Assembly (NCBI RefSeq): GCF_000384415.1
Contig: NZ_ARVU01000001.1
Location: forward strand, 1,054,001 to 1,118,000
Length of the DNA stretch: 64,000 nt
Source: Cycloclasticus pugetii PS-1
GTDB taxonomy: Bacteria; Pseudomonadota; Gammaproteobacteria; Methylococcales; Cycloclasticaceae
Reading direction: 5' to 3'
Position 1 is the stretch's first letter; each line of letters begins with the position of its first letter. Positions 35,424-48,267 of the stretch are shown here, one piece after another. The translations under genes and the position numbers were made by a program. The notes beneath the pieces are model-generated. The model was given only the letters and a program-made list of their open reading frames with translations, was not told where the DNA came from and ran no database searches.

Positions 35424-35550
35424 GGTTTATCATTTGGCACGTTTAGTTTTAGAATTTAACTGATTTCAATAATTAAAAAACAGGGCGCTAGCTCGTTGTT
35501 TTTAGGTGCATAACTGGCTCAGACTTACGATTTTAGGTGTACATTGAACC

Positions 35551-35577
35551 TATATAGTACTAAAATAGTCCTATATA
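35551..35577. promoter_or_regulatory. Palindromic operator candidate for SufR
   Basis: A 27-base near-perfect palindrome has arms TATATAGTACTA and TAGTCCTATATA, which pair at 11 of 12 positions, around a central AAA. It ends ten bases before the sufR ATG. Its core, ACTAAAATAGT, resembles the GACTAAAnnAGTC heart of IscR-type sites. A possible -35 TTGAAC lies just upstream (35544-35549). Binding by the adjacent Rrf2 regulator, giving feedback control by Fe-S status, is inferred. Confidence 0.65.
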
Positions 35578-35587
35578 TGAGGTTATT

Positions 35588-36058
35588 ATGTTAAGAGTCA
35601 GTAAACTTACAGATTACGCGAGCGTTATTTTGACGCATATTGCTCATCATCCAGATGCGCTTCATGCTGCTTCTGACTTAACCAATGCAACAGGTGTTGC
35701 GTTACCCACCGTGAGTAAGATTCTTAAATTGTTAACAAAAAATAACATTTTAGTCTCTCACCGTGGATCTAAAGGTGGTTACGCATTAGTAAACTCCCCC
35801 AGTGAAACAAACGTGGCTGACATAATTACCGCGATAGAAGGCCCAATTAGTATGACTGAATGCAGTACGATTTCAGGTCTATGTGAACAGGAAGCCTCGT
35901 GCGAAGTTAAGGGTAATTGGCATTTAATAAACAGAGCCGTCTATACCGCTATTGAGGCGGTTAGTCTGGCAGATATGATTACCCCGGTTAGGCAGCAAAC
36001 AGTTAATTTTAGTGTGCCAGAAATGGTCAAAACAAGTGATTTAAAAGTGGAGAGCTAG
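35588..36058 (+). CDS. sufR: Rrf2-family SUF operon regulator
   Basis: This has 156 residues. The N-terminal winged helix (LTDYASVILTHIA, TVSKILKLL, GSKGGYAL) is of the Rrf2/IscR family. Three cysteines, C92, C99 and C105, match the Fe-S cluster ligands of IscR (C92, C98, C104). It probably senses Fe-S demand with a [2Fe-2S] cluster and controls its own operon through the palindrome upstream. This SUF-linked Rrf2 type is known from Xanthomonas. It directly abuts sufB. Confidence 0.88.
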   Translation: MLRVSKLTDYASVILTHIAHHPDALHAASDLTNATGVALPTVSKILKLLTKNNILVSHRGSKGGYALVNSPSETNVADIITAIEGPISMTECSTISGLCEQEASCEVKGNWHLINRAVYTAIEAVSLADMITPVRQQTVNFSVPEMVKTSDLKVES

Positions 36059-37507
36059 ATGTCAGCATCTAATGAAAATTTAAAAGATAGGATAGGTCAA
36101 GCGTACAAAGATGGTTTTGTGACGGATATTGAATCAGATTCTTTTCCGCCAGGCCTAAATGAAGATGTTATCAGAGCCTTGTCAGCAAAAAAAGAAGAGC
36201 CTGAGTTTTTGCTGGAATGGCGATTAGAAGCATATCGGCATTGGCTAACAATGGAGCACCCCGAGTGGGCGTTTGTTGAATTTCCTAAAATAGATTTTCA
36301 GGATATCAGCTATTACTCAGCGCCAAAAAGTATGGAAGATGGGCCTAAGAGTTTAGATGAGGTGGACCCTGAACTTATCAGTACCTATAACAAATTAGGA
36401 ATTCCACTGGAAGAGCAAATGCGTCTTGCCGGTGTGGCCGTTGATGCTGTGTTCGATAGTGTTTCTGTCGCGACCACGTTTAAAGATAAACTAGCTGAAG
36501 CGGGTGTTATATTTTGTTCATTCTCAGAAGCAGTTAAAGACCACCCAGAGTTGATTAAACAGTACTTAGGCACTGTGGTTTCACAGTATGATAATTTTTA
36601 TGCAGCGTTGAATGCTGCGGTGTTTAGTGATGGCTCATTTGTATACATTCCTAAGGGCGTTCGCTGTCCAATGGAACTGTCTACTTACTTTAGAATTAAT
36701 GCGGCTAATACCGGACAGTTTGAGCGAACCTTAATTGTCGCAGATGAAGGTAGCCATGTCAGTTACCTAGAAGGTTGTACAGCGCCTATGCGAGATGAAA
36801 ACCAATTGCACGCAGCAGTGGTTGAATTGGTGGTTTTGAAAGATGCTGAAATTAAATATTCAACTGTTCAAAATTGGTATCCGGGTGATGAGAACGGCCT
36901 TGGTGGTATTTATAATTTTGTAACAAAACGCGCTGATTGTCGTGAAGACAATGCCAAAGTGTCTTGGACACAAGTTGAAACAGGTTCCGCGATTACGTGG
37001 AAATACCCCAGTGTTATCTTGAAGGGTGATAATTCTGTTGGCGAGTTTTATTCAGTTGCGTTGACAAATAATTACCAACAAGCAGATACCGGCACAAAAA
37101 TGATCCACCAAGGAAAGAATACGAGTAGTACAATTATCTCAAAAGGTATTTCGGCGGGGCATGGGCAAAATACGTATCGCGGTCTTGTTAAAGTAGGTCG
37201 AGGTGCTGAAAATGCTCGAAACTATACACAATGTGACTCGTTGTTAATGGGTGACCAATGTGGCGCGCACACCTTTCCGTATATAGAAACAAAAAACCCT
37301 ACTGCGACCATCGAACATGAGGCGTCGACCTCTAAGATCAGTGAAGACCAATTATTTTATTGCATGCAACGAGGCATTTCTGCCGAAGATGCTGTCTCGA
37401 TGATTGTGAACGGATTTTGTAAAGAAGTGTTTAAAGAATTACCGATGGAGTTTGCGGTTGAAGCGCAGGCCCTACTTGGCATTAGTCTTGAAGGCAGTGT
37501 TGGTTAA
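36059..37507 (+). CDS. sufB: Fe-S cluster assembly protein SufB
   Basis: This scaffold subunit of the SufBC2D complex is where the cluster is built. It has 482 residues. Typical SufB stretches are [49 protein letters not shown] and the C-terminal [11 protein letters not shown]. It starts on the base after sufR. Confidence 0.96.
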
Positions 37508-37534: not shown

Positions 37535-38287
37535 ATGTTAAAGGTTGAAAATTTACACGTCAGTGTAGAAGGAAAAGAAATTCTTAAAGGTATTAATTTA
37601 GAAATTGGCGCTGGTGAAGTACATGCGATTATGGGTCCAAATGGCTCTGGTAAAAGTACCTTGTCATACGTGCTCTCTGGTCGAGAAGGCTATGAAATAA
37701 CCGAAGGCCGTGTATTATTTAACGGTAAAGACTTGTTTGAAATGAGTGTAGAAGAGCGTGCTTGGGCAGGCGTATTTCTGGCTTTTCAATACCCGGTAGA
37801 AGTCCCAGGCGTGAGCAATATTTATTTCCTAAAGGCTGCACTTAATGGTGTGCGTAAATTTAACGGCTTACCAGAGCTTGATGCGATGGATTTTATTTCC
37901 ATGGTAAAGGGAAAAATGAAAGAGCTCGATATGGATGAAAAGTTTCTATACCGCGCCGTTAATGAAGGGTTCTCTGGTGGTGAGAAAAAGCGTAATGAAA
38001 TTCTTCAAATGTCAGTATTAGAGCCCTCATTATGTTTGTTAGATGAAACAGATTCTGGTTTAGATATTGATGCGCTTCAAGTCGTTGCTAAAGGCGTTAA
38101 CCGTCTACGTAACCCTGAACGTTCATTTGTTTTAGTGACTCATTACCAGCGTTTGCTAGATTATATTAAACCTGATTACGTTCATGTATTAGCTCATGGA
38201 CAAGTCGTTAAGTCAGGTGGTCCAGAACTAGCATTAGAACTTGAAAAACAAGGCTATGCTTGGGTTGACGAAAAATTAGCGAGTTAA
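37535..38287 (+). CDS. sufC: Fe-S assembly ATPase SufC
   Basis: This ABC-type cytosolic ATPase drives SufBC2D. It has 250 residues with Walker A GPNGSGKST, the signature FSGGEKKRNE and Walker B LCLLDETDSGLD. The Shine-Dalgarno is AAGGA in the 27-base gap after sufB. Confidence 0.96.
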   Translation: MLKVENLHVSVEGKEILKGINLEIGAGEVHAIMGPNGSGKSTLSYVLSGREGYEITEGRVLFNGKDLFEMSVEERAWAGVFLAFQYPVEVPGVSNIYFLKAALNGVRKFNGLPELDAMDFISMVKGKMKELDMDEKFLYRAVNEGFSGGEKKRNEILQMSVLEPSLCLLDETDSGLDIDALQVVAKGVNRLRNPERSFVLVTHYQRLLDYIKPDYVHVLAHGQVVKSGGPELALELEKQGYAWVDEKLAS

Positions 38288-38289
38288 TT

Positions 38290-39621
38290 ATGTCTGTTAC
38301 GCATTTACCAAATACTCATTACACTGGCTTAGTGCTAGATCAAAAAAAACAGCTTCTTGGTGAAGGGTTTGATTGGTTAGCTAATCTACGTAAACAAGCG
38401 GCAGAGCAATTTTCTGCTAGTGGTTTTCCAACGTTTCGTGAAGAAGAGTGGCGATATACGAATATTACGCCGATAGAAAAGAATCAATTTACACTGCCTG
38501 ATGTCGCTGGACAGGTCGATTCTGCATTTGTCGATAGTGTCTTGTTAGATGACTGCCATCACATCGTGTTTGTTGACGGCTTTTATCAAGCTGAGCTTTC
38601 TTCGCTTAAGGATATACCGAATGGTGTGATTGTTTCCGCTTTGAGTGATGGCCTAGTCGATAACGAAGCGCTTATTAAGTCATTATTGGATTCTGTAGTA
38701 GAAACACCAGCGTTAGGGTTCATTAATTTTAATACCGCTCTTTTTTCTGATGGTGCGTTGATTTGTATTGAGGAAAACACGGTGGTCGATAAACCGATTC
38801 AGGTAGCGTTTATCTCATCAAAACAAGGCGCATTAACACTGAGTAATACAAGAAACTTAATACTTGCTCAAGCATCATCAAAAGCACAAATCATTGAAAC
38901 CTATCATGCAGTTGATGACAGCTGTTATCTTACAAACGTTATCAGCGAAGTGGTTGTTGAGCCGAATGCAAACTTATCACACCACCGTTTACAATCTGAA
39001 TCTACAAGCGCCTATCATATTGGTGGTGTTTATTCACGGCTTGAGAAAAATGCAATATTTAATCAGAACAGTTACACTTTTGGTGCAAGTATCTCGCGCA
39101 CGGAGGCTCATGCAACCCTAGGAGAAGCCTCTGACTGTACTATGGATGGTTTATATGTTGGACAAGATCGTCAGCATATGGATCAACATACGCGCTTAAA
39201 TCATGCACAGCCGCACGCTGTTAGTAATGAGTTCTATAAAGGAATTTTAGGCGACCATTCAACGGGTGTTTTCCAAGGGCGTATTATTGTTGCGCAAGAT
39301 GCTCAAAAAACTGATGCAGCAATGAATAACAGAAATTTATTGTTATCCGATCGTGCCGAAGTTGACACCAAGCCACAATTGGAAATTTATGCTGATGACG
39401 TTAAATGTGCTCATGGTGTAACGGTTGGTCAGCTTGATGATGCAGCTGTTTTCTATTTGCAGTCTAGGGGCGTTGACAACCAGACTGCAAAAAATATGTT
39501 GACCTTCGCGTTTGCCAACGAAATGATTGAGCGAGTTAGTTTTGAACCATTAAGAATGGCCTTGTTAGCTAACTTGCTTAAACGCTTCCCACAGGCCGGT
39601 ATGAAAAAAGAGTGGTTATGA
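38290..39621 (+). CDS. sufD: Fe-S cluster assembly protein SufD
   Basis: This SufB paralogue pairs with SufB in the complex and helps iron entry. It has 443 residues. Motifs include FREEEWRYTN near the start and, at the C-terminus, YADDVKCAHGVTVGQLDDAA and FYLQSRGV. It overlaps sufS by four bases as ATGA. Confidence 0.94.
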   Translation: MSVTHLPNTHYTGLVLDQKKQLLGEGFDWLANLRKQAAEQFSASGFPTFREEEWRYTNITPIEKNQFTLPDVAGQVDSAFVDSVLLDDCHHIVFVDGFYQAELSSLKDIPNGVIVSALSDGLVDNEALIKSLLDSVVETPALGFINFNTALFSDGALICIEENTVVDKPIQVAFISSKQGALTLSNTRNLILAQASSKAQIIETYHAVDDSCYLTNVISEVVVEPNANLSHHRLQSESTSAYHIGGVYSRLEKNAIFNQNSYTFGASISRTEAHATLGEASDCTMDGLYVGQDRQHMDQHTRLNHAQPHAVSNEFYKGILGDHSTGVFQGRIIVAQDAQKTDAAMNNRNLLLSDRAEVDTKPQLEIYADDVKCAHGVTVGQLDDAAVFYLQSRGVDNQTAKNMLTFAFANEMIERVSFEPLRMALLANLLKRFPQAGMKKEWL

Positions 39622-40859
39622 ATCAATCAGTAGAAAATTTAGCCGCGTATGATGTTGATAAAATCCGTCAGGACTTTCCTGTCTTAGATCAGCAAGTTCG
39701 GGGTAAACCATTGGTATACCTTGATAATGCAGCGACAAGCCAAAAACCTAAGCAGGTGATAGATAGTATCGTTAACTATTATGAAAACGATAATGCTAAT
39801 ATCCATCGAGGTGTTCATACATTAAGTGAGCGGGCTACTTTATCGTATGAGAATGCGCGTAAAACTGTTCAACAGTTTTTGAATGCAGCATCAGAAAAAG
39901 AAATTGTTTTCACCCGTGGGGCGACAGAAGCTATTAACTTAGTCGCCAATGGCTTAGCAGAAACAATTAAACAAGGCGATGAAATATTGATCACCGCGAT
40001 GGAGCACCATTCCAATATTGTTCCTTGGCAGATGTTATGCAAAAAAACAGGGGCTAGCTTAAAGGTGGCACCAATTAATGAGCATGGTGAGCTGATGCTG
40101 GAAGAGTTTGAAGCATTGATAAGCAACAAAACTAAGTTTGCGGCTATATCGCACATGTCCAATGCGTTGGGAACAATTAACCCAATTAAGCAACTAATCG
40201 ACCAGCTTCATCAGCATGATGTTCCTGTTCTTGTGGATGGCGCTCAAGCAATTCCTCATATTTCAGTTGATGTGCAGGCGCTTGATTGTGAATTTTATGT
40301 GTTTTCTGGGCATAAATTGTACGCACCAACCGGTATTGGTGCTCTGTATGGAAAAATGGAGCAACTTGAACAAATGGCGCCTTATCAAGGTGGTGGTGAC
40401 ATGATCAGTGTTGTTACATTTGATAAGACGGTCTATAACAAAGTACCGTATAAGTTTGAAGCGGGAACACCAAACATTGCTGGAACGATTGGTTTAGGCG
40501 CAGCAATAGACTATGTAAACAGCATTGGGGTTGATGAGATAGCGGCGCATGAAAATGCATTATTAAACTATGCTGTAGCACAAGCTAAACGCATTGATAA
40601 ATTAAGAGTTATTGGTACGGCTAAAGAAAAAGGAGCGATTATGTCGTTCGTTTTAGACGGTATCCACCCGCATGATATTGGTACGATGATGGATCATCAA
40701 GGTATTGCAGTTAGAGCAGGGCATCATTGTGCAATGCCTGTGATGGATTTTTTTGGAGTGCCTGCCACTGCGAGAGCTTCATTTGCAATGTATAATACGC
40801 ATCAAGAAGTCGATGCTTTGATGGCTGGAATTGAAAACTTAATAGAGATGTTTGGCTAA
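39618..40859 (+). CDS. sufS: Cysteine desulfurase SufS
   Basis: This type-II PLP desulfurase supplies sulfur. It has 413 residues. The N-terminal YLDNAATSQKP, PLP lysine K233 (FSGHKLYAP) and sulfur-carrying C371 (RAGHHCAMP) are all visible. ATG 39618 overlaps the sufD TGA; the in-frame GTG at 39612 is less likely. It shares one base with sufU, its sulfur-acceptor partner. Confidence 0.96.
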   Translation: MNQSVENLAAYDVDKIRQDFPVLDQQVRGKPLVYLDNAATSQKPKQVIDSIVNYYENDNANIHRGVHTLSERATLSYENARKTVQQFLNAASEKEIVFTRGATEAINLVANGLAETIKQGDEILITAMEHHSNIVPWQMLCKKTGASLKVAPINEHGELMLEEFEALISNKTKFAAISHMSNALGTINPIKQLIDQLHQHDVPVLVDGAQAIPHISVDVQALDCEFYVFSGHKLYAPTGIGALYGKMEQLEQMAPYQGGGDMISVVTFDKTVYNKVPYKFEAGTPNIAGTIGLGAAIDYVNSIGVDEIAAHENALLNYAVAQAKRIDKLRVIGTAKEKGAIMSFVLDGIHPHDIGTMMDHQGIAVRAGHHCAMPVMDFFGVPATARASFAMYNTHQEVDALMAGIENLIEMFG

Positions 40860-41305
40860 TGTTGGATGATTTAAGAGATCTATATCAAGAAGTTATTTTT
40901 GATCATAATAGAAACCCAAGAAATTTCCGCGCGATGGACGATGCAGATCGTCAAATAGACGGCTTTAATCCATTATGTGGAGACCGATTAACGCTTTTTA
41001 TAAAATTTTCAGACGGTAAAATTAGTGATGCTAGCTTTCAGGGTCAAGGTTGCGCAATTTCAACAGCCTCCGCATCATTGATGACAGATATCGTTAAAGG
41101 GCAGACCGAAGAAGAAGCTCAACACCTATTTTCATTGTTCCATAAAATGGCAACGGGTGAGCATGTTGAAATGGACGAGCTTGGAAAACTAGCCGTATTA
41201 GCAGGTGTCTGTGAATATCCTGCACGTGTTAAATGTGCAACATTACCATGGCATACGTTAGATGCTTTGTTACAAGGGTCAGAAGAACCGGTAACAACCG
41301 AATAA
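40859..41305 (+). CDS. sufU: SufU-type sulfurtransferase/scaffold
   Basis: This has 148 residues. The zinc/sulfur ligands C40 and D42 (PLCGDR), C65 (GQGCAIS) and C126 (VKCATLPW) match SufU, as does the insertion before the last Cys that separates SufU from IscU. In Bacillus SufU accepts sulfur from SufS. Its presence explains why no sufE is seen. It is the last gene of the suf operon; no sufA or sufT follows. Confidence 0.92.
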   Translation: MLDDLRDLYQEVIFDHNRNPRNFRAMDDADRQIDGFNPLCGDRLTLFIKFSDGKISDASFQGQGCAISTASASLMTDIVKGQTEEEAQHLFSLFHKMATGEHVEMDELGKLAVLAGVCEYPARVKCATLPWHTLDALLQGSEEPVTTE

Positions 41306-41327: not shown

Positions 41328-42426
41328 ATGCGTGAGCTTAACCCAATCATTAATAAGATTAGTGACCTAAAAGAGCGTACTTTATCGCTTAGGGGGTACC
41401 TTTGACTTCGAAACAAAAGACGAGCGTTTAACCGAGGTTTTACGCGAATTAGAAGACCCTGACGTATGGAATGATCCTGATCGAGCACAAACATTGGGTA
41501 AGGAACGTGGCCAACTAGAACTTGTTGTCAATACTATTAATGAATTAACTAGCGCGTTAGCAGATGCAAGTGACCTGTTGGAAATGGCTGTTGACGAAGA
41601 TGATGATGAGACAGTCGCGACAATAGAAGAAGACTTATTATCTTTTGAAAAAAAAGTAGCGGCACTTGAATTTCAACGCATGTTTGCAGGTGAGATGGAT
41701 GCAAATAATGCTTTCTTAGATATTCAAGCAGGCTCAGGTGGCACAGAGGCCCAAGATTGGGCTGAAATGATTTTGCGTATGTACCTGCGGTGGGCGGAGC
41801 AACATGATTTTAAGACAGATATCATCGAGATTTCAGCTGGTGATGTGGCCGGTATTAAAAGTGCAACAGTGTCTATTCAAGGAGATTATGTATTCGGTTG
41901 GTTAAAAACTGAAATTGGTGTGCATCGATTAGTGCGGAAATCACCATTTGATTCAGGTAACCGTCGTCATACATCTTTTGCTGCTGTTTTTGTATCACCA
42001 GAAATTGATGATGATATTGATATTGATATCAATCCAGCTGATTTGAGAATTGATGTGTATAGGGCCAGTGGGGCAGGTGGGCAGCATGTTAACAAAACAG
42101 AGTCTGCTGTGCGCATTACACATGAACCGACCAATACGGTTGTTCAATGTCAAAATGATCGATCGCAGCATAAAAATAAAGCCACAGCAATGAAGCAATT
42201 AAAAGCTAAGCTGTATGAGCTAGAAATGCAAAAGAAAATGGCTGATCAACAAGAGCAAGAAGAAAGCAAATCAGATATTGGCTGGGGAAACCAGATTAGG
42301 TCTTATGTATTAGACCAATCAAGAATTAAAGATTTACGTACAGGTGTCGAAACTGGCAATACACAAGCAGTCCTCGATGGGTCGTTAGACCAATTTATTG
42401 AAGCCAGTCTAAAAAGTGGAATTTAA
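41328..42426 (+). CDS. prfB: Peptide chain release factor 2 (+1 frameshift)
   Basis: RF2 releases peptides at UGA and UAA. Translation starts at ATG 41328, reads 25 codons ending L-R-G-Y-L, and meets in-frame UGA at 41403-41405. A +1 shift that skips T41403 continues as D-F-E-T-K to 42426, giving 365 residues, as in E. coli. After the shift, the SPF anticodon-like motif falls at 205-207 and GGQ at 250-252, the exact E. coli numbers. The coordinates are join(41328..41402, 41404..42426). An ATG at 41494 is an internal codon and not the start. Confidence 0.96.
41391..41406 (+). promoter_or_regulatory. prfB programmed +1 frameshift site
   Basis: The canonical cassette is present: an internal Shine-Dalgarno AGGGGG (41391-41396), the spacer TAC, the slippery CTT, then TGA followed by C (41397-41406). 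Low RF2 slows UGA reading and favours the shift, so RF2 regulates its own synthesis. This is well established for the E. coli gene. Confidence 0.95.
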
Positions 42427-47886: not shown

Positions 47887-48267
47887 ATGAGTTTAAGATC
47901 ACCACTTGGCCAGGCTAAAGGCCTAGGTTCAGCAAAAGACGGTTTACACCACTGGTGGGCTCAACGTGTAACGGCCGTTGCCCTTATTCCATTAACAATT
48001 TGGTTTGCGTTTAAAGTGGCTGTACTCAGCATGGCTGATTACACAACCGTTGTAGACTGTATTGGCACGCCTTGGTCTGCTGCTTTGATTGTTAGTTTAG
48101 TTGTTGCTGCTTTCTATCATGCCGCATTGGGTATGCAAGTTATTTACGAGGACTATATTGGTGCTAAGGCTGTACGAATTGCCGCCATTATGGGGACTAA
48201 CTTATTATTATTTTTATTGGCCGCTGCAAGCATTATTGCTGTGGTACGCATTGCTGTGGGAGGCTAG
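47887..48267 (+). CDS. sdhD: Succinate dehydrogenase membrane anchor
   Basis: This is the second membrane anchor of complex II. It has 126 residues and three membrane segments, with AAFYHAALGMQVIYEDY carrying the heme/quinone-side residues. I chose ATG 47887, one base after the sdhC stop; an in-frame start 45 bases upstream would lie within sdhC and is unlikely. Confidence 0.92.
   Translation: MSLRSPLGQAKGLGSAKDGLHHWWAQRVTAVALIPLTIWFAFKVAVLSMADYTTVVDCIGTPWSAALIVSLVVAAFYHAALGMQVIYEDYIGAKAVRIAAIMGTNLLLFLLAAASIIAVVRIAVGG

Follow-up and report, generated by a model that had tools for sequence, protein, structure and literature searches.

A conserved palindrome before sufR is the probable operator of the adjacent Rrf2 regulator in Cycloclasticus pugetii

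Introduction

RisR of Myxococcus xanthus is a cluster-binding Rrf2 protein with a footprinted site, TkGAC-N7-GTCCw, set in AT-rich flanks. Its sites cover the -35 and -10 elements of suf and the -10 element of isc, and the holo form represses both (available text of PMC9973013). For IscR, the type-1 consensus is ATASYYGACTRWWWYAGTCRRSTAT (available part of PMC6599224), and the Escherichia coli type-2 motif is xxWWWWCCxYAxxxxxxxTRxGGWWWWxx (available part of PMC4055776). Marker residues of IscR are S40, E43, and Q44, and its ligands form a Cys3-His1 set (PMC9973013, PMC11475020, and PMC5411485, each in part). In Streptomyces coelicolor NsrR, the [4Fe-4S] ligands are Cys93, Cys99, and Cys105, together with Asp8 of the other subunit (available text of PMC5411485). 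The cyanobacterial and actinobacterial proteins called SufR share the name and the role, that of a holo repressor of suf, with the TIGR02944 protein considered here but belong to another protein family, with the operator CAAC-N6-GTTG (PMC8593673). A search of the open-access literature turned up no described operator for TIGR02944 proteins.

Results and discussion

The suf operon and its regulator

The window, the whole 64-kb stretch of C. pugetii PS-1 DNA that was analyzed, carries a suf operon headed by sufR (Table 1): sufB begins one base past the sufR stop codon and is followed by sufC, sufD, sufS, and sufU. SufR scores 158.6 bits against TIGR02944 (SUF Fe-S assembly regulator, Rrf2), over the curated cut-off of 110.65, and is thus a member of that family; against the IscR profile TIGR02010, its 62 bits fall below the curated cut-off of 207.55. 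At an E value of ≤0.001, SufR was the only Rrf2 protein detected in the PS-1 genome. The suf system is probably the main cluster machinery in Cycloclasticus, because no IscU match was found at E ≤1e-30 in 18 genomes of the Cycloclasticus group, some of them incomplete, and a dedicated feedback sensor fits such a role.

Table 1. Features of the suf locus, in window coordinates
Feature	Position	Strand	Basis
-35 hexamer TGTACA, sufR promoter	35538..35543	+	promoter scan
Proposed SufR operator, 27-bp palindrome	35551..35577	.	sequence reading, inverted-repeat list, upstream-region comparison
-10 hexamer TAAAAT, within palindrome	35561..35566	+	promoter scan, upstream-region comparison
Likely sufR ribosome-binding site GAGG	35579..35582	+	sequence reading
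sufR, Rrf2-family regulator, NCBIfam TIGR02944; Cys92, Cys99, Cys105, Asp9; recognition helix P40 T41 V42 S43 K44	35588..36058	+	profile search, alignment
sufB, target operon	36059..37507	+	profile search
sufC	37535..38287	+	profile search
sufD	38290..39621	+	profile search
sufS-family cysteine desulfurase	39612..40859	+	profile search
sufU	40859..41305	+	profile search

A palindrome over the predicted sufR promoter

The sequence-only reading had described a 27-bp palindrome with arms around AAA ending ten bases before sufR, and re-reading of 35551-35577 agreed with it exactly. The letters are TATATAGTACTA-AAA-TAGTCCTATATA, with 12-nt arms that are 92% complementary (11/12 positions) across a 3-nt gap (inverted repeat I2), and 10 nt (35578-35587) separate them from the sufR ATG at 35588. 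The frame conserved among relatives is 25 bp long (35552-35576), and its center, 35564, serves as position 0 for the dyad positions given below. No other dyad in the window matches at 11/12 positions with a 3-nt gap. With any letter accepted at the three central bases and as many as 3 mismatches allowed, the palindrome matched only itself on both strands of the window, and 100 shuffles gave 0 matches. Symmetry alone nevertheless proves little, because 3 comparable dyads turned up among 10 windows simulated with a first-order Markov model (about 0.3 per 64 kb). The strong evidence is that of position and conservation.

The palindrome overlaps a predicted sigma-70-like promoter, TGTACA-17-TAAAAT (35538-35566), which has 9/12 consensus letters; the promoter scan of 301 bases returned two promoter-like matches, and shuffles a mean of 1.0. 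Among the 137 sufR upstream regions compared below, the spacer between a -35-like T[TGA]TAC and the -10 element is 17 nt in 131 and 18 nt in 6. Since the predicted -10 hexamer is covered by the palindrome, bound SufR should block RNA polymerase. The same placement bears on whether the dyad functions instead as an RNA hairpin at the 5' end of the sufR message. An inverted repeat near a start codon would suit that role, but because the predicted -10 hexamer falls within the dyad, transcription would begin downstream of its left arm, and we find an RNA hairpin scarcely credible.

Within the Cycloclasticus genus, the G/A-rich positions at the putative sufR ribosome-binding site are kept. In two relatives, G016 (L045) and G033 (L062), the 17-bp core stops only 2 and 4 nt, respectively, short of the sufR start codon, and because of these short distances sufR is possibly transcribed without a leader in both. 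The window also holds an inverted repeat with 14-nt arms, 79% complementary (35476-35503), in the interval from the S4-domain gene upstream to sufR. It is possibly a terminator; the terminator scan, which included this repeat, called none.

Conservation in the order and the phylum

Conservation in relatives had been set beforehand as a check on which the operator proposal could fail, and the site proved to be kept in every region read. From 151 genomes of the host's order, 139 with a TIGR02944 match at E ≤1e-25, we read 137 sufR upstream regions, leaving out G102 (partial gene) and G149; 15, including the window, are from the Cycloclasticus genus and 122 are from other genera. The core is present in the same promoter frame in 137/137. 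The best match to AGGACTAAAATAGTCCT has 12 to 17 of 17 letters throughout and at least 14 in 127 regions, and mononucleotide shuffling of these regions (n = 2740) never gave more than 13. The 10 regions scoring 12 or 13, a level reached by 67/2740 shuffles, rest on position.

Counted position by position, with our own placement of the site in G120, where the scan-picked site was displaced, the letters A-12, A-5, C-4, T-3, A-2, T+2, G+4, and T+5 are invariant (137/137), and C+7 (132/137), T+12 (128/137), and G-7 (122/137) are nearly so. Within the genus, ATATAG at -12 to -7 and ATAT at +9 to +12 are kept in 15/15. The rest of the order is looser at ±10 to ±12, though mostly A or T, so the flanks TATATAG/CTATATA appear to be the genus version of a wider, loosely A/T-flanked site. 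These flanks had been held to set the palindrome apart from IscR sites; the difference is real but lies at ±7 to ±9, and the end letters, A-12 and T+12, are those of IscR type 1.

The -10 hexamer accounts for part of the core conservation, and the conserved block might be nothing but core promoter and start region, its symmetry accidental. The -10 element within the block, the conserved spacer to the -35, and the rate at which such dyads arose in simulation all suit this explanation, as does the lack of clear covariation across the dyad: in the 137 regions, nothing clear exceeded independence (98 complementary pairs versus 91.2 expected at ±6, 57 versus 49.2 at ±9, 42 versus 35.9 at ±10, and about equal numbers elsewhere), and the symmetry rests on fixed letters. 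At positions 4 to 12, dyad partners are complementary in 849/1233 cells, compared to 164-421 after a shift of the partner by 1 or 2 bases. Against a block conserved as promoter only, the invariant or near-invariant positions -12, -7, -5, -4, +4, +5, +7, and +12 all fall outside the -10 hexamer and the other promoter hexamer, and GnAC-N7-GTnC is retained, with different intervening letters, before many distant TIGR02944 genes. We consider that explanation improbable.

The distant genes come from 299 genomes drawn across the phylum, of which 98, the host's own included, have TIGR02944. Forty-nine of the other 97 genomes supplied 49 upstream regions (29 from loci that came with the top-scoring matches and 20 picked to spread over families), and each was scanned for its best GnAC-N7-GTnC dyad within 150 nt upstream of the TIGR02944 gene. 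All six letters were found in 18/49, five or six in 35/49, and fewer than five in 14/49. With 50 shuffles each, at most one scored as high in 28/49 and more than one in 21/49, and some of the best matches lie far (>65 nt) from the start codon. Upstream of the TIGR02944 gene, the Rhodanobacter locus has GTAC-CATTTTA-GTCC and the Commensalibacter locus GGAC-TTATACA-GTCC; GTAC/GGAC-N7-GTAC was seen by eye in two alphaproteobacteria, a member of the Rhodospirillales, and two gammaproteobacteria. A Krumholzibacteriia locus (L100) fits the site in part, and L103 and L104, weak matches with 26% and 22% identity, were left aside. In three loci of one family (L272, L274, and L278; f40), two SufR-like boxes seem, by eye, to stand end to end before sufR.

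Copies elsewhere in the genomes

A genome scan for further copies, proposed with the sequence-only reading, gave no further convincing copy in PS-1. With as many as 3 mismatches allowed, the 23-bp version was found at a single place in the 2.38-Mb genome. At up to 2 mismatches, the 17-bp core gave 12 forward and 4 reverse matches, and its backward control gave 5 and 7. As a second genomic target we rejected the sole match with 1 mismatch, which falls within a 504-codon open frame. One match with 2 mismatches lies at window position 48149.

We looked for exact matches to GKACTARAATRGTMC in 61 genomes, the host's and those of 60 relatives. There was a single match in each of 51, and all 51 matches lie 3 to 31 nt before sufR on the sufR strand; the backward control gave 2 matches in the 61 genomes. 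The pattern is absent from 10 genomes. Six of these have a sufR with variant letters in the site, among 57 genomes with sufR, and the other four (G003, G006, G010, and G045) have no TIGR02944 match over the family cut-off.

The SufR protein

We compared the 137 SufR proteins with 20 IscR proteins of the same order. The three cysteines of a cluster-binding Rrf2 protein, noted earlier in the adjacent regulator, are C92 (137/137) and C99 and C105 (136/137 each, one row being cut short). Asp9 is present in 137/137, where IscR has Arg in 20/20. The recognition helix is nearly invariant, with K44 and K47 in 137/137, and is unlike that of IscR: the commonest SufR letters are P40 T41 V42 S43 K44, and IscR has S40 Y41 L42 E43 Q44 in 20/20. 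Wing residues R59 (135/137 SufR), G60, G63, G64, and Y65 are common to both. SufR thus carries P40, S43, and K44 instead of S40, E43, and Q44, and does not have the IscR S40/Y41/E43/Q44 set. Nor does it have the Cys3-His1 ligands: no His occurs at the IscR His107 position in the SufR alignment (n = 137), and the window SufR has Lys108.

In the match table of the SufR profile with the NsrR structure 5n07, the match starts at SufR residue 2 paired with NsrR residue 1; because of this pairing, SufR Asp9 should correspond to NsrR Asp8. The three cysteines and the invariant Asp9, likely counterparts of the three Cys ligands and the N-terminal Asp of S. coelicolor NsrR, suggest that SufR is an NsrR-like [4Fe-4S] switch with these residues as ligands. 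NsrR differs in being an NO sensor with other targets and in its cysteine spacing, C-x5-C-x5-C versus C-x6-C-x5-C in SufR (available text of PMC5411485). The AlphaFold model of SufR has a mean pLDDT of 77, with residues 97-102 below 50. A structure search with this model matched Rrf2 proteins of the CymR, IscR, RsrR, and NsrR kinds and did not single out NsrR, and the first 60 residues of SufR gave no match among solved structures.

Comparison with described operators

The M. xanthus RisR operator (GAC-N7-GTC), rather than that of E. coli IscR, comes closest among the published sites that we found. The window core, TAC-N7-GTC, is one letter off, and both halves are exact in 91/137 relatives. 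Like SufR, RisR is an Rrf2 protein with three cysteines and without the IscR base-reading residues, and its core and AT-rich flanks lie over promoter hexamers. The systems differ in that RisR controls both isc and suf, whereas for SufR we see a single operon and a single site, and in the cysteines, C92/C102/C108 in RisR and C92/C99/C105 in SufR (as far as the available text of PMC9973013 goes). By analogy, the SufR site would work like the RisR operator, a likeness drawn between the operators.

The resemblance of the core to IscR-type sites claimed in the sequence-only reading holds in part, and the RisR operator is nearer. E. coli/Pseudomonas type-1 sites share with the SufR boxes the 25-bp frame, A-12/T+12, the center ACT-N5-AGT, and a winged-helix Rrf2 protein; they differ at ±7 to ±9 (available part of PMC6599224). 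The palindrome itself has the frame and most of the center of ATASYYGACTRWWWYAGTCRRSTAT and departs from it at ±7 to ±9 and at -6, which is T in the window. Given this frame and the GACT-N5-AGTC center of the consensus, the palindrome could be a type-1 operator bound by IscR instead of SufR. However, at E ≤1e-20 IscR is absent from 18/18 Cycloclasticus-group genomes, some incomplete, and the site is kept in 15/15 promoters of the genus; the complete PS-1 genome has its single Rrf2 match in SufR; the letters at ±7 to ±9 differ; and the iscR promoters of relatives carry a site different from the SufR palindrome. Binding by IscR is in our judgment very improbable.

A proposed one-operator feedback loop

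The palindrome is best read as the operator of the adjacent SufR, which would repress sufR-sufBCDSU in a one-operator feedback loop; we put the probability of this at roughly 0.86. The likely autoregulatory operator first suggested from the DNA alone is thereby supported as the best reading by the 137/137 conservation. We infer binding, repression, and holo-SufR as the binding form. A cluster-loaded SufR dimer would bind the 25-bp dyad and, by covering the sufR-sufBCDSU promoter at its -10 element and start region, block RNA polymerase sterically. When Fe-S clusters run short, SufR would lose its cluster and leave the DNA, inducing the suf operon. The signal would be the cluster occupancy of SufR, and the control would be negative autoregulation through one operator. 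As a control element the palindrome is solid but largely expected; for TIGR02944, an Rrf2 regulator of wide occurrence, the analysis adds a precisely defined candidate operator, set out as a one-site feedback loop.

A second, IscR-like box in relatives

In most relatives, the -35 element of the suf promoter is overlain by another box, which is IscR-like. Near the -35 in the 122 promoters from other genera, A-38 is conserved in 95, C-34 in 112, C-33 in 97, and A-31 in 112, TTTACT in 116-122 of 122 per position, and G-18 in 116/122, for a consensus of roughly ATAACCnAGTnCTTTACTnGGnAAT. CC and GG are spaced as in the E. coli type-2 IscR motif (CC-N13-GG), and the letters beside CC differ (available part of PMC4055776). 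In Cycloclasticus, the left half of the box is missing. G-18, which belongs to the right half, is found in the genus too (14/15), so that the left half alone is diagnostic of the box.

We scored the left half with a half-site matrix built from 18/20 iscR promoters (one was masked and one scored too low) and no suf promoters; the iscR-promoter sites were located with a consensus written after inspecting those promoters. IscR at E ≤1e-20 was present in 127/151 genomes and absent from 24/151, with G025 and G031 counted as positive on partial matches alone; in G019, G026, G055, G076, G095, and G100, a whole-Rrf2 search gave SufR as the sole strong match. The left half was the best of all positions in 80/116 suf promoters of IscR-positive genomes, and in the top three in 100/116; it was found in 2/21 promoters of IscR-negative genomes. 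With a one-base frame slip allowed, it scored above 0 in 110/116 and 3/21, respectively. The association of the box with IscR presence has a Mann-Whitney p of 2e-9 with kinship ignored.

On the SufR tree, 6 changes account for the distribution of IscR and 7 for that of the box. Among 5 independent IscR-differing pairs on supported branches, the box was on average concordant in 1.9, opposite in 0.0, and equal in 3.1, a nonsignificant result; pairs selected on the box (n = 3) differed the same way in 1.0, the opposite way in 0.0, and not at all in 1.9. Loss of the box along with IscR thus leans the expected way and is not significant after phylogenetic correction. Exceptions are six IscR-positive genomes without the box (G044, G058, G064, G080, G086, and G101) and three IscR-negative genomes with it: G076 and G100 (98% and 78% complete, in many contigs) and G005, whose box scores -9.1 in frame and is positive only with the slip.

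IscU exceeded its curated cut-off in only 19 of 151 genomes, compared to 127/151 for IscR; another 61 IscU-like matches (110-139 bits, in frames of at least 300 aa) are possibly NifU. In this order, IscR apparently persists after the ISC machinery has gone. The suf promoter of the order may be a two-regulator device, an idea to which we give somewhat less than an even chance: separate Rrf2 sensors would each read one operator, SufR (probably [4Fe-4S]) the one on the -10 and IscR ([2Fe-2S]) an IscR-like one on the -35, loss of IscR would let the -35 box decay and leave SufR alone, as in Cycloclasticus, and IscR might persist in many genomes without a recognizable IscU because it still serves suf. 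Comparing IscR and SufR sites in the same promoters makes two questions testable, namely, how paralogous sensors with near-identical frames avoid cross-talk and what becomes of a shared promoter after one sensor is lost.

Downstream of suf, the apparent start of prfB is the ATG at 41328 (window 41328-41406), and the open reading frame list gives a start only at 41494, downstream of that ATG. The prfB stretch AGGGGGTACCTTTGAC, at about 41391-41406, resembles what we take to be a programmed-frameshift motif.
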